NCBI RefSeq assembly: GCF_023115355.1
Contig: NZ_CP096019.1
Location: 1,736,001 to 1,800,000 of the forward strand
DNA length: 64,000 nt
Source: Halocatena salina
GTDB lineage: Archaea > Halobacteriota > Halobacteria > Halobacteriales > Haloarculaceae
Direction of reading: 5' to 3'
Part shown: positions 28,595 through 50,260 of the stretch, in pieces
Layout of the letters: each line of letters begins with the position of its first letter
Position numbering within the stretch: position 1 is the stretch's first letter
The notes under the pieces: generated by a model
What the model saw: the letters and a program-made list of their open reading frames with translations, nothing else
Database searches by the model: none
Told to the model about the DNA's origin: nothing
Position numbers and translations under genes: made by a program

Positions 28595-29512
28595 TCAGTC
28601 CTTCTCGACTTGGGCATGCTCGATCAGATCTCGGTAGTGAGTACGGATCGTCATGCTCGTGATATCGGCAACGCTGCTGATCTCCTGTTGAGTGATCCGC
28701 TCACCGGTCAGGCAGGCGCTGGCGTACAGCGCAGCAGCAGCCAACCCTGCTGGATTCTTGCCGCTCGTATACGTGGTGCCAGCGACGGATTCGAGCAGAT
28801 CGTGGGCTTGTCGATGGACTGTTTCGGAGCAGTCTACGCCCGACGCAAAGCGAGGCAGAAACGCCGTCGGATCGGCCGGCTCGATCGCCAGCCCTAACTC
28901 TCCACCGACGGTTCGATAGGCCCGTGCGATCCGATTGCGGTCGACACGGGCGACCGTCGTCACTTCGTCGAGCGTGCGGGGAATGCTTTCCTGACGGGCT
29001 GCCGCGTACACGCCTGCGGCCGCGACACCTTCGATCGACCGCCCGACCAACAACCCCTCATCGAGTGCCCGTCGATAGATGACGCTCGCGGTCTCTCGAA
29101 CGGACTGGGGTAGTCCGAGTGCACTCGCCATCCGATTGATCTCCGTAAACGCCTGTTTGAGGTTGCGCTCCGTGGCATCCCGCGTCCGACACCGCTCGTT
29201 CCACGTTCGAAGCCGTCGCATCTGGTTTCGCTTGCGCGCGCTGAGCTGCCGTCCGGAAGCGTCCCGATCCCGATCGCTGATGAACGTCGACAACCCTTTG
29301 TCGTGCATCGTCATCGATGTCGGTCCGCCGGTGCGCGCGACTTCCGCATACTCACGCGAGTTGTAGGCTGTCCACTCCGGTCCGTGGTCTACGGCCTCTT
29401 CTTCGAGAACGGTGCCACATTCGGTACACACCGTTTCTCCACGGCGCGGATCGGCGACAACTGTCGCGCCGCAGTGAGGACACGATTGCTGAGTTGGGGT
29501 GGCGAGATTCAT
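28595..29512 (-). CDS. tfb: Transcription initiation factor TFB
   Basis: A 305-residue TFIIB homologue. The zinc ribbon has C11, C14, C29 and C32 (CPHC and CTEC). The B-finger region and two cyclin folds follow, the second ending GERITQQEISSVADITSMTIR. It recruits RNA polymerase to TBP-bound promoters. Haloarchaea carry several TFB genes, and this is one of them; which one cannot be told here. I start at MNLATPTQ, close to the zinc ribbon. Upstream is a long A+T-rich gap. Confidence 0.93.
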   Translation of the reverse strand: MNLATPTQQSCPHCGATVVADPRRGETVCTECGTVLEEEAVDHGPEWTAYNSREYAEVARTGGPTSMTMHDKGLSTFISDRDRDASGRQLSARKRNQMRRLRTWNERCRTRDATERNLKQAFTEINRMASALGLPQSVRETASVIYRRALDEGLLVGRSIEGVAAAGVYAAARQESIPRTLDEVTTVARVDRNRIARAYRTVGGELGLAIEPADPTAFLPRFASGVDCSETVHRQAHDLLESVAGTTYTSGKNPAGLAAAALYASACLTGERITQQEISSVADITSMTIRTHYRDLIEHAQVEKD

Positions 29513-30160
29513 ACTGATGAAACAGCCGGTTTCGGTGCCTGTCGGTCGACAGTGTGATTCCATGACGATGCTGTTCGTACTTCGACGCCGCTCCATTCGA
29601 TCATCATCTGACGGCTATTAAACCACCCAAACGATGCCGTATCGATCGGCGTTCTTCTCAACCTGAATCGGTGATTCGTGTATGGTTTGCAAGCCGTTCT
29701 CGTTGATCGACCATCGTCGTGGTTGCTGTATCGGTGAAAAATCATCTTTTTCGAATGATCGTTCTCAATTATTGTCATAGTTCCTGCCTCAACGCTGTCC
29801 AATGGGATGGACTTATCTTCCAGTCTGGTTGATCGGTGTTGCTACATACATTCATTTCAAACATCTTTGTTATCACATTGGTCGAATGATGGTTTACTGT
29901 TGGACGTTTGTCGCTGGCCGTTGTAGTTCATGTAGAACGGTACGTTGAGTGTTATTACGGCGGATATCCTCAGATCTAACGCTCTACAGACTGATTGCTG
30001 ATATGATCTTTTACTGTCCTAATCACTCACCATACTACCTATGAACAGTCTCTATATACTTATATGTCGTCCATTGTTTACCTCTCATTGGTTTTATTCA
30101 TTTACAATAATTCCTATTATTCCCAAACGTTTTCATAGCTATGAGTAATTAAGCATAGCT
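29513..30160. other. A+T-rich gap between tfb and the XRE regulator
   Basis: About 650 nt without a supported gene. The left part (29513-29800) has haloarchaeal-looking composition and may hold the tfb promoter. From about 29800 to 30160 it becomes strongly A+T-rich, unlike the flanking genes. The right end holds paired palindromes next to the regulator start. No RNA fold or transposon end is recognised. Confidence 0.6.
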
Positions 30161-30163
30161 ATG
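30134..30163 (+). promoter_or_regulatory. Paired palindromic operator at the XRE gene start
   Basis: Two perfect 12-bp palindromes, TCATAGCTATGA (30133-30144) and GCATAGCTATGC (30153-30164), share a 10-bp core. Their centres are 20 bp apart, about two DNA turns. The second covers the ATG at 30161 and the first lies where TATA or initiator contacts are expected. This is the layout of a repressor site for a dimeric HTH protein, so autoregulation by the adjacent XRE protein is inferred. Confidence 0.65.
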
Positions 30164-31090
30164 CAAGATCAATTTGAAATCAAAATAGAAGAGAAGTTAT
30201 CCGAACTTCTAGCCATCACAGATGAAAGTAATGCTGAAATTGCGAATGAAGTAGGTGTTTCGTCGTCATCGATCACACAGTATCGGAAAGGTGAGACACG
30301 TCCCAGTTTGGAGAAGCTCGTTGCACTCGCCACGGCGTTGGACGTGAGTCTCGATTATCTCGTACTCGGTGAAGACGAGGAGGGTGACCAGATGGACCCC
30401 GATCCAGTCGTACGGTATATGGATCAATCCTTACAGGACGTGCAGGTTCGAACGGCTCAGCATACGGCTCTCGTGGCCCACGTGGGTCGTCGGCTCTCGC
30501 AGATGCTGGATACGGAGATCGAGCAGTATCTCGAAGAGAATCCAAGCCGACGCCTGTACGCGGGAATCATCGCAGACACCGAGTTGACATCCCTCGAACG
30601 GCACAGCCAAACGACGCGGCTGATGCTCCAGACGCTGCATTACAATCTTCAGGACGACTGCCCGAAGACACCGGGTAGCTTCTTTAAAACTGTTGCTAAT
30701 AACCTGAGTCAAGGACGAGAGTATCAGTATCTGCTCGCGGATACCCCCACGACGGATTGGCCATCGCAGATCGAACAGTTCCGTCGGCTCCTCATCGAAC
30801 AAACCAACAGCGAGGGCATTGTCCGATCTAACTGTAGCTTTCGTGTAACGGACTCTCCGCTGTTTACTGGCTGCGGTATGTACGACCTTGCAGAGGACGA
30901 TCTCGAAAGCGAAGACCCGGTGTTGTATGATTTTCTCACCGAACAAGATTACTTGTACGCAGACGGCCGTGTCGGATATGTTATCTCTCCATCACTCGAT
31001 GTACAGGGGGTCACGATCATGGACAACGACCATCTTACGAACGCGATGCAGTCGTTTGAGACCCTCTGGGAGGAGGCGGATCCGATTTAA
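30161..31090 (+). CDS. XRE-family regulator with large C-terminal domain
   Basis: A 309-residue protein. Residues about 10-65 form an XRE/Cro helix-turn-helix (NAEIANEVGVSSSSITQYRKG). Residues about 90-305 form a separate domain I cannot name, with YAGIIADTELTSLERHSQT, NCSFRVTDSPLFTGCGMYDL and GRVGYVISPSLDVQG. Similar proteins appear to occur in bacteria, which suggests transfer between domains. The first 150 nt are A+T-rich like the gap upstream. Its stop overlaps the end of the convergent B3/B4 gene by 4 nt. The C-terminal domain is probably a ligand or stress sensor, which is inference. Confidence 0.8.
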   Translation: MQDQFEIKIEEKLSELLAITDESNAEIANEVGVSSSSITQYRKGETRPSLEKLVALATALDVSLDYLVLGEDEEGDQMDPDPVVRYMDQSLQDVQVRTAQHTALVAHVGRRLSQMLDTEIEQYLEENPSRRLYAGIIADTELTSLERHSQTTRLMLQTLHYNLQDDCPKTPGSFFKTVANNLSQGREYQYLLADTPTTDWPSQIEQFRRLLIEQTNSEGIVRSNCSFRVTDSPLFTGCGMYDLAEDDLESEDPVLYDFLTEQDYLYADGRVGYVISPSLDVQGVTIMDNDHLTNAMQSFETLWEEADPI

Positions 31091-31797
31091 GGAGAAGCGG
31101 CAACTGAGTCGGCGTCGGCAGCGTCCTGGGTGACGACATCGAGGAACGTCAGCGTGGCGTCCGGACATGTTTCACAGATCAGGTCGTAAGCGCGCCGACA
31201 CACCGCCCGGTTGTCTTCCTCGGAGGTCTCTTCGTTGCCCAGCGATAGCAGTAGCGCCTGTTCGGTCGCTTCAGTAACCCGGTATGCGCCTGCATCCCGA
31301 TCGACTGGACCGAGGATCCCGAGTATCTGTCCGTCGACCTCGTGAAGCACGTCGCCAGCGGTGGCCTGTACCGGCTTTTCGTGGAAGATCGGAAGGATGC
31401 GCTCGCCGCCACTGGCCCGGTGGACGTACACGTCCCCCGACAGCGCCGTCACGTCGTGCATTCCCAGTCCCATCCCCCGCTCGGCGCTAGCGATATTGTA
31501 CGCATCGACCACGTTGTTGTGACGGTTCAACCCTTGCTCTTCTATGAGTCGTATGAGCTGTTCGCCGGCTGGCTCCTGTCCCGGATGTCCGACCGCTTCG
31601 AAAACATCATGGTATGAAGTAACTTCTTTTCTGCTAAGTATTTCCTCCGATTTCGTGTCTATTTTTCTTTCAAGTTCTGTAACATGTTCGTCGAGCTTGG
31701 TCGCCTCAGACCGGACATCAAGCCCATTGATGAGGCATCCGACCGGATTTTTGATCCCTATTTGTCGAACGTCTTCTGTGACAACAATTCGATCCAT
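31087..31797 (-). CDS. B3/B4 (PheT-like tRNA-binding) domain protein
   Basis: A 236-residue protein resembling the B3/B4 domain of phenylalanyl-tRNA synthetase beta chain (COG3382 type). Visible signs are VVDAYNIASAERGMGLGMHDV, GDVYVHRASGGERILPI and ILGILGPVDRDAGAYRVTE. Stand-alone copies are thought to bind or edit tRNA or amino acids, without clear proof. An A+T-rich TATA-like tract (about 31828-31838) lies upstream on the minus strand. It is tail-to-tail with the XRE gene. Confidence 0.8.
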   Translation of the reverse strand: MDRIVVTEDVRQIGIKNPVGCLINGLDVRSEATKLDEHVTELERKIDTKSEEILSRKEVTSYHDVFEAVGHPGQEPAGEQLIRLIEEQGLNRHNNVVDAYNIASAERGMGLGMHDVTALSGDVYVHRASGGERILPIFHEKPVQATAGDVLHEVDGQILGILGPVDRDAGAYRVTEATEQALLLSLGNEETSEEDNRAVCRRAYDLICETCPDATLTFLDVVTQDAADADSVAASP

Positions 31798-40677: not shown

Positions 40678-40750
40678 CGTCCTGACGGAGATTTGAACTC
40701 CGGTCCCTGGCTCCGCAAGCCAAGAGGATAGTCCACTACCCTATCAGGAC
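40678..40750 (-). tRNA. tRNA-Arg (anticodon GCG)
   Basis: A 73-nt cloverleaf on the minus strand. The acceptor stem GTCCTGA pairs with TCAGGAC, with discriminator G and no encoded CCA. The T arm is CGGAG-TTCAAAT-CTCCG. The anticodon arm TTGGC-TTGCGGA-GCCAG gives anticodon GCG at positions 34-36, reading CGC. No intron is present. Confidence 0.93.
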
Positions 40751-48409: not shown

Positions 48410-50260
48410 ATGACCTATCAATCGATGCAAATTGCGAATATTATTCCCGACATTAATAATCAGTTTTTCCTACCTGGTATTCAACGTGAATTTGTCTGGA
48501 ATACAGATCAAATTATTCAGCTATTCGATTCAGTTATTAGGGGCTACCCGATTGGTTCGTTCCTCTTTTGGAACGTTAGGGGTAAAGTTGCAAAAGAACG
48601 TATCAAATATGAATTCATCAAACATTACATTACTGAAGGTGTATATCCTGCTGAATTTGACGATAGGGACTTTCGCAATCCAAAAGTTCGAGATGAGTAC
48701 AGCGAAGGTCTCCCTAATAAATTGACGCTAGTGCTTGATGGCCAACAACGACTTTCGTCTTTCTATATTGGACTTAAGGGAAGTCTTACAGATCGTGGCT
48801 ATAACCAACGCAAGAAAAAGCCTGATTCTTGGGATCGTAAAAAGCTGTATATGAATTTGTTGTTTGATAATGCGACAGTCATGGACAATGAATTCGGATT
48901 GAAATATATGTTGGAATTCAAAGAACCCAAGCCCTCTCACTCAGAGACTGAATACTGGTTTTTTGTTGGTGATATTCTAGATATCGAGTCACGAGATGAT
49001 GCGTATGAGAGAACTGATGAAATCATGAATGAACTTGAGATGGTCGGAATTGATGGAATTGAGAGGTCAAATATTCAACGAAACCTCAACGACCTTTGGC
49101 AAACTTTCCACGAACGGAATATAATCAACTATTATGAATTGGGGGCGAAACATAATGATGATATACTCGATATCTTTATTAGAGCGAATGATGGCGGGAC
49201 GCAATTAAGCAAAGAAGAGATGATGCTGTCCGTAGCGACAGCAGAGTGGTCAAAAAGTAATAATCCAACTGATGCTAGAAAAAAGGTTACCACGTTAGTT
49301 GATAAACTCAATAACTATTATCCAAATTCTAATTTCAATTTTGCCACCAATTTTGTCTTGCGTAGTCTCCTTGTAGCGACTGGTTTGCGAAGTAAATACG
49401 ATATGCAGGCATTTTCATCCGATAATCTACAAGAGATGAAATCTACCTTCGAAGAGGATGAATTTGAGGGGTCATTTTTTAAGGCATTAGATTTAATCAA
49501 GAGTTATGGATTAGATGGACGTTCTGTCTCCTCAACTGTGGCAATTATCCCAATAGTTTATTTCTTCTATTTAAATAAAAATTATAACTTAAGCTGGGAA
49601 TCTAAACAGGGTCGGAAAACGAGAGCAAAGATTTTCTACTGGCTTTCGACTACCCTCCTGAAGGGAAGTTATACACAGTCAGGACATCAGGTGATGACAG
49701 TTACACAAGATGCTATTGAGGCTGCGCCACGCGGTGTGTTTCCGCTTGAAAGCCTCCATCATGAAGTACTTGCAATGGGGAAACCAATCACATTCCTTGA
49801 GGAGGAAGCGCGAGAGATGCTTCAGAGTCTCAAGTATCGTGACAGACATGCTAAAATATTTCTTTCACTGCTGTACTTCCCTGATCCAGCTAGTGAGCAC
49901 GAGACATTCGAAATCGATCATATCTTTCCTAGAAGTGAATTAACTGAAAGGAATTTGATAGAAGACTATGATATGAATGTTACCCAAGCAAAACGGTATG
50001 ATTCACTCCGAGATAGTATTCTCAATCTCCAATTGCTTACGCCAGAAGAAAATGCTGAGAAAGCAGATCGTCCATACAATGAGTGGCTTCAGAGTCGACA
50101 TGAATCACAACTAAACCGACACTATATTCCTCAAGATGATAATCAAGATCTGTATACTGTTGCTCAGTTCGAAGATTTTCTCAACCTGCGCAAAGAACTG
50201 ATCGTTTCTGAAATTATTGAGATGTCTAACAAAATAGAAGAGTTGTTCGATAGCTCGTAG
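48410..50260 (+). CDS. DUF262/HNH protein, putative modified-DNA restriction
   Basis: A 616-residue protein. The N-terminal DUF262 (ParB/sulfiredoxin-like) domain shows PGIQREFVW at 22-30, GYPIGSFLFW at 45-54 and DGQQRLSSFY at 110-119. The C-terminal HNH-type part has FEIDHIFPRSEL with H504. This joins the two parts found in GmrSD-type IV restriction enzymes, and is also like SspE and BrxU defence proteins. The gene is strongly A+T-rich compared with its neighbours, which indicates recent transfer. No methylase, phosphorothioation or BREX genes are adjacent, so it seems to stand alone. A role against phages with modified DNA is inferred from family. Confidence 0.85.
   Translation: MTYQSMQIANIIPDINNQFFLPGIQREFVWNTDQIIQLFDSVIRGYPIGSFLFWNVRGKVAKERIKYEFIKHYITEGVYPAEFDDRDFRNPKVRDEYSEGLPNKLTLVLDGQQRLSSFYIGLKGSLTDRGYNQRKKKPDSWDRKKLYMNLLFDNATVMDNEFGLKYMLEFKEPKPSHSETEYWFFVGDILDIESRDDAYERTDEIMNELEMVGIDGIERSNIQRNLNDLWQTFHERNIINYYELGAKHNDDILDIFIRANDGGTQLSKEEMMLSVATAEWSKSNNPTDARKKVTTLVDKLNNYYPNSNFNFATNFVLRSLLVATGLRSKYDMQAFSSDNLQEMKSTFEEDEFEGSFFKALDLIKSYGLDGRSVSSTVAIIPIVYFFYLNKNYNLSWESKQGRKTRAKIFYWLSTTLLKGSYTQSGHQVMTVTQDAIEAAPRGVFPLESLHHEVLAMGKPITFLEEEAREMLQSLKYRDRHAKIFLSLLYFPDPASEHETFEIDHIFPRSELTERNLIEDYDMNVTQAKRYDSLRDSILNLQLLTPEENAEKADRPYNEWLQSRHESQLNRHYIPQDDNQDLYTVAQFEDFLNLRKELIVSEIIEMSNKIEELFDSS

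Follow-up and report, generated by a model that had tools for sequence, protein, structure and literature searches.

Regulators of the TrmB and TrmBL2 type combine a helix-turn-helix (HTH), in their case a winged helix, with a connecting helix and a domain of the phospholipase D (PLD) fold that has no phospholipase activity. The sugar contacts of TrmB include G320 and E326 (PMC4158304). PLD folds are also found in the FAM83 (DUF1669) pseudo-phospholipases and in SauUSI, neither of which is fused to an HTH of the XRE type. Repressors that do carry an XRE HTH, such as P22 c2, RstR and DicA, continue into a peptidase or a short dimer domain. Free B3/4 domains are known from bacterial proteins that act in trans-editing and deacylate canavanyl-tRNA(Arg); the gene for one of them, the deacylase CtdA, adjoins canavanine catabolic genes or lies under guanidine riboswitches (PMC10018355).

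The locus described here lies in a 64,000-nucleotide stretch of the Halocatena salina genome, which we call the window. The reading we favor, at a probability of roughly 0.55, is that its product is an XRE regulator of the one-component kind whose PLD-type domain is inactive, and that this regulator forms part of a lineage-specific module together with a protein of the B3/4 tRNA-editing type.

Domain make-up and predicted fold of the regulator

The regulator gene (30161-31090, + strand) encodes 309 amino acids and has orthologues that are 92, 85 and 59% identical to it. Codons 5-71 (30173-30373, +) form a Cro/C1 (XRE) HTH resembling that of P22 c2. Pfam HTH_3 matches residues 23-67 (E 1.9e-10; 41.0 bits against a cut-off of 23), and the predicted HTH aligns with the P22 c2 repressor structure over 66 residues (Z 11.1, rmsd 2.1, 33% identity). 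These two matches bear out the preliminary description of the protein as an XRE one-component regulator. For the RstR family of NCBIfam (NF041951) it scored 49.3 bits, under the curated cut-off of 80. The HTH is what the protein has in common with P22 c2, RstR and DicA; unlike them it has no phage context, and its C-terminal part is a predicted PLD-like domain of 200 residues.

For the region beyond the HTH we relied on an AlphaFold2 model of middling confidence (mean pLDDT 74), built from an alignment of 11 sequences. It places a long connecting helix at codons 89-126 (30425-30538, +), where pLDDT is 33-60; judging from the model, this helix likely forms a dimer. Codons 130-309 (30548-31087, +) are modeled as a phospholipase-D-like domain without HxKxxxxD, an assignment that comes from structure matches. 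The best C-terminal matches to the full-length model were SauUSI (Z 12.8, rmsd 5.1, 148 residues) and FAM83 (Z 12.0, rmsd 2.9, 133 residues), with TrmB (Z 10.4, rmsd 4.2, 124 residues) and TrmBL2 (Z 10.4, rmsd 4.1, 124 residues) below them. Modeling the C-terminal domain alone returned the same list (SauUSI Z 12.2, FAM83 11.2, TrmB 10.7), and in both models the leading non-HTH matches were all PLD-superfamily folds. The resemblance lies in fold: SauUSI and FAM83, at Z 11-13, are only about 12% identical to the regulator.

The HxKxxxxD motif was absent in 11 of 11 family members, and the C-terminal domain is therefore probably not an enzyme. By analogy with TrmB-type regulators, a PLD-like domain lacking this motif probably serves ligand or protein interaction. 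The analogy extends to the order of parts, here in predicted structure, with an HTH, a connecting helix and a PLD-fold domain, and the PLD-like part of TrmB aligns with the regulator at Z 10.4-10.7, and TrmBL2 at Z 9.4-10.4. There are also clear differences. Identity is only 10-11%, and the DNA-binding domain is XRE rather than winged helix, the TrmB winged helix (PF01978) having no match in the regulator and its HTH being of the Cro/C1 type. Moreover, the regulator chain stops where the match stops, at TrmB residue 241, so that the region of the sugar residues is missing.

Searches of Pfam and the PDB found no sequence relatives of the C-terminal domain, and the TrmB effector domain (PF11495) was matched in fold, through TrmB, without a sequence match. 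The domain had been described beforehand as an undescribed sensor domain; that holds for its sequence, which falls in no known family, but not for its predicted fold, which is that of the PLD superfamily as seen in TrmB and TrmBL2.

Genus distribution and the convergent B3/4 gene

Full-length relatives of the regulator occur in seven of seven genomes of the Halocatena/Actinarchaeum genus and nowhere else among 146 family-level genomes; since G040 and G041 seem to carry the same contig, six of the seven are independent. Beyond the genus, the family set gave a single hit (L014, G108:C34), a short HTH-only match. The genome that holds it is fragmented and its contig small, the DNA upstream is A+T-rich and the sequence looks bacterial; it is probably contamination. 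A profile search of 391 class genomes gave extra-genus matches confined to the HTH part and linker, and the C-terminal domain was absent from the other 294 phylum genomes searched and from viral contigs. The whole protein had no match in plasmids. Beyond the genus, the closest HTH matches are bacterial, mostly from Bacteroidota, so the HTH may have come from bacteria long ago.

A transcription factor B (TFB) gene adjoins the regulator as the preliminary description had it: it is the next gene upstream (28595-29515, −; Pfam TFIIB E 5.8e-40) and is transcribed divergently. The order TFB, regulator, B3/4 is kept in four species, and regulator paralogues are found across the genus. These observations bear on whether the gene is a recent foreign import, for example a phage-type repressor from a mobile element. 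Its HTH does resemble phage repressors, its best extra-genus matches are bacterial, and the A+T-rich setting described earlier is real, since GC content is 40.8% in the intergenic region (29597-30160) and 51.9% in the gene compared with 58.3% in the whole window. Against this stand the shared neighbors in four species, the paralogues throughout the genus and the lack of any viral or plasmid relative of the protein. We consider a recent import highly improbable and reject it on the strength of the four-species synteny; of the earlier suggestion that the gene was imported, what survives is the possibility that it was gained earlier, in the ancestor that the genus shares.

Elsewhere in the window, a gene at 48410-50260 (+) encodes a 616-residue protein that by eye resembles restriction proteins of the DUF262/GmrSD type. 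It sits in a 41% GC island (48-51 kb) next to a pyrE-like gene and looks like a recently acquired defense gene.

The TFB neighbor is specific to this locus; the neighbor that travels with the regulator is the B3/4 gene. This gene (31087-31797, −) is convergent with the regulator, the two stop codons overlapping by 4 bp, and encodes a stand-alone B3/4-domain protein of 236 amino acids (Pfam B3_4, E 3.8e-12). The PF03483 match lies outside PheT and reaches 46.6 bits against a cut-off of 29.3. The domain is akin to the editing domain of the PheRS beta subunit, and N94, D98, N101, H114 and D115 are among its invariant residues. The protein looks like one of the tRNA-editing type. It shares a free B3/4 domain with CtdA and differs from it in its setting, convergent with an XRE regulator. 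Close relatives were present in seven of seven genus genomes and in none of the 139 others of the family, and in 59 class genomes the other matches to the B3/4 family fell nearly all within PheT-sized frames.

One haloarchaeal genome holds four stand-alone B3/4 genes, the window gene among them (the others being L126, L128 and L132); two are beside XRE regulators and two are on other contigs without them. The other sampled haloarchaea seldom had such free B3/4 proteins. In the class sample, the match with the highest score is a short B3/4 protein in a haloarchaeon of another family (L133, G169).

Within the genome collection used, the genus of Halocatena takes in the window genome and, as its relatives, H. 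pleomorpha, H. marina, Actinarchaeum halophilum and strains YIM A00010 and A00013. The tail-to-tail arrangement of regulator and B3/4 gene recurs at two loci, one beside TFB and one at purS/purQ, each in four species. The 4-bp stop overlap is found at both loci in the window genome and at purS/purQ in A00010, and, judged by coordinates, H. pleomorpha and A00010 have it at the TFB locus too. In H. marina, A. halophilum and A00013 the two genes stand further apart. In the trees, the purS/purQ regulator of the window genome falls in a clade other than that of its counterparts in A00010, A. halophilum and A00013, and its B3/4 partner does likewise, an agreement expected if the pair was exchanged or lost as a unit.

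Several observations count against a module. H. pleomorpha keeps the regulator at purS/purQ without a B3/4 gene, several B3/4 copies have no adjoining regulator, and a third regulator type, in A. halophilum and A00013, has no B3/4 neighbor. We read the pair as a two-gene module that has been duplicated, and passed on jointly, within the Halocatena/Actinarchaeum clade. The third regulator type (L017 and L018) is the more divergent one; it has a DNA polymerase IV-like gene beside it and a ribonucleotide-reductase-like gene downstream.

A search for an operator shared by the regulator and B3/4 upstream regions gave only TATA-like or promoter-like words and start-codon words, and in the joint set these words were about as frequent as after shuffling. 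Because no further word or dyad is shared, control of the B3/4 partner by the regulator is a guess.

Palindromes at the regulator start

Two 12-bp palindromes with a shared core, 20 bp apart at the start of the regulator's own gene, had been noted in the preliminary description. Both are present and perfect: TCATAGCTATGA at 30133-30144 and GCATAGCTATGC, which includes the ATG, at 30153-30164 (no strand assigned to either). Their common core is CATAGCTATG, the 20-bp spacing is measured start to start, and the start codon (30161-30163) is the end of the second palindrome core.

The window as a whole is not rich in such sequences, with 100 perfect palindromes of at least 10 bp observed and 107 expected by simulation. 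An identical pair within 40 bp appeared in 8 of 200 locally matched simulated windows (about 0.04 per window), and the pair by itself is only mildly unlikely by chance. It is more unusual than this figure implies because it is placed on the start codon. Nor is the core scattered through the genome: there are four copies in 4.0 Mb, two of them here. This count is about what length alone predicts, and a reversed control sequence has 13 copies. Both remaining copies are within ORFs: in a small ORF close to its 3′ end, and in the open frame of a gene not far from the 5′ end.

Two candidate promoters precede the gene. The proximal one (30122-30137, +), read from the sequence, is a BRE/TATA candidate made up of CCCAAACG and TTTTCATA, 24-31 bp before the ATG, and would give a leaderless transcript. 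Similar A-rich and T-rich blocks lie at the same place in most homologues. Promoter motifs reported for haloarchaea are TTWT and CGAAA, and leaderless transcripts are the commonest type in Haloferax volcanii, at 72% (PMC4983044). The distal candidate, a TATA element (CTTATA) at 30059-30064 (+), stands 101-103 bp before the ATG in nine of nine homologues compared. The earlier statement that the palindromes cover promoter and start is upheld, in that the first overlaps the candidate BRE/TATA-like element and the second the start codon.

Under the proximal candidate promoter, then, the palindromes would lie over both the TATA region and the start site. They might be true autoregulatory operators, at which two dimers two helical turns apart would sit over TATA and start site and shut the regulator's own promoter. 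We hold this to be possible, with the odds somewhat against it. In its favor are the identity and perfection of the two copies over a candidate promoter and start codon, the small number of simulated windows with such a pair and the restriction of the two further core copies to ORFs. An H. pleomorpha paralogue also has ATAGCGAT and ATAGCTAT upstream, at the same two positions as the palindromes.

Comparison with the orthologues speaks against operators of this kind. The recognition helix is the same in the window, H. pleomorpha and A00010 proteins, whereas the palindromes are perfect in the window genome only. In H. pleomorpha (protein 92% identical) the sites read TCATGGGTATGC and GCACAACTATGC, and in A00010 (85% identical) TCATAGACATGA and GCACAACTATGC; in these two orthologues the first site pairs at 3/6 and 4/6 positions and the second at 4/6 in both. 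Over the 60 bp that precede the ATG, the window and H. pleomorpha differ at five positions, all five inside the palindromes (P = 0.003 for this clustering, by a test chosen after the data were seen). Of third codon positions, 31% differ between the same two genomes. Within the proximal promoter no part is less conserved than the palindromes, which evolve more quickly than their flanks. In none of six other genus genomes does the core lie upstream of any regulator copy. As a genus-wide regulon motif the core was rejected as well, with 0-7 copies per genome and none before another regulator copy, and an operator kept in the orthologues was looked for upstream of homologues and not found. Among nine homologues, the start-codon site carries an imperfect dyad (at least 4/6) in six; at the upstream palindrome site no recurring dyad was found.

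Upstream of two paralogues (L006 and L016), the last 100 bp before the ATG are near-identical between two species apart from the ATG-proximal bases, which read ACGACT and ATAGCT, respectively; the same bases vary at the window locus.

The palindromes may instead have arisen by chance from the A+T-rich promoter and start-codon context and bind nothing, a reading we regard as quite conceivable, though short of probable. It fits the number of palindromes in the window, the 4% of simulations that yield such a pair and a genome frequency of the core close to the prediction from length. At palindrome 2, the other two species agree with each other at the two positions where the window genome differs, indicating that this palindrome was perfected in the window-genome lineage; two changes peculiar to that genome complete it. 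What chance explains less readily is the exact placement on start codon and candidate TATA region, and the identity of the two copies.

A further alternative assigns the palindromes a role in RNA. Under the distal promoter they would be in the leader, and in the window genome they could form one hairpin over the ATG. Such a hairpin in the CTTATA transcript would hide the start codon and exert translational control. The RNA at 30126-30185 does fold strongly (-14.4 kcal/mol, z -3.8), and the distal element keeps its distance from the ATG in all nine homologues. The same region folds in an ordinary manner in the orthologues (z -1.3 and -0.4), however, so that the strong fold is found in the window genome only. 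Most mRNAs of haloarchaea have no leader (PMC4983044), and in a leaderless transcript from the proximal candidate the first arm would be missing. Rfam showed no structured RNA here; its one hit was a tRNA at 40678-40750. We think translational control by such a hairpin unlikely.

Taken on its own, binding of the regulator to the two palindromes is a tentative proposal that we rate below even odds. Autoregulation through them, as put forward in the preliminary description, is weakened, because orthologues with the same recognition helix have imperfect sites and conservation within the proximal promoter is lowest at the palindromes. From the habit of the family and the position of the palindromes, autoregulation as such is plausible, but conservation lends no support to the idea that it works through the perfect palindromes. 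In themselves, these are of no more than ordinary interest.

A proposed lineage-specific module and its possible role

Returning to the favored reading, of a one-component XRE regulator paired with an editing-type protein, we propose the following mechanism. The P22 c2-like domain would bind DNA, and the long helix would make a dimer. This dimer would sense a small molecule or stress signal and control its own gene, possibly also the B3/4 gene, whose product would deacylate a mischarged tRNA. A more specific version, which we consider improbable, is that the XRE regulator, through a PLD sensor resembling that of TrmB, responds to an unusual amino acid or to a differentiation signal and tunes a private set of stand-alone editing proteins.

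The XRE-plus-PLD architecture carries the idea embodied in TrmB, an inactive PLD fold as a regulator domain, to another DNA-binding domain. Within the Halocatena/Actinarchaeum clade, some members reportedly grow as hyphae and produce spores, 47 regulators differ in expression between the substrate and aerial hyphae of A. halophilum, and 61 clade-gained genes are reported (PMC10067837). For such a clade, a regulator family and a B3/4 partner that are both restricted to the genus provide a short, testable list of candidates. If the more specific version, improbable as we hold it, were true, a module that arose in hypha- and spore-forming haloarchaea would tie translation quality control to development in Archaea.
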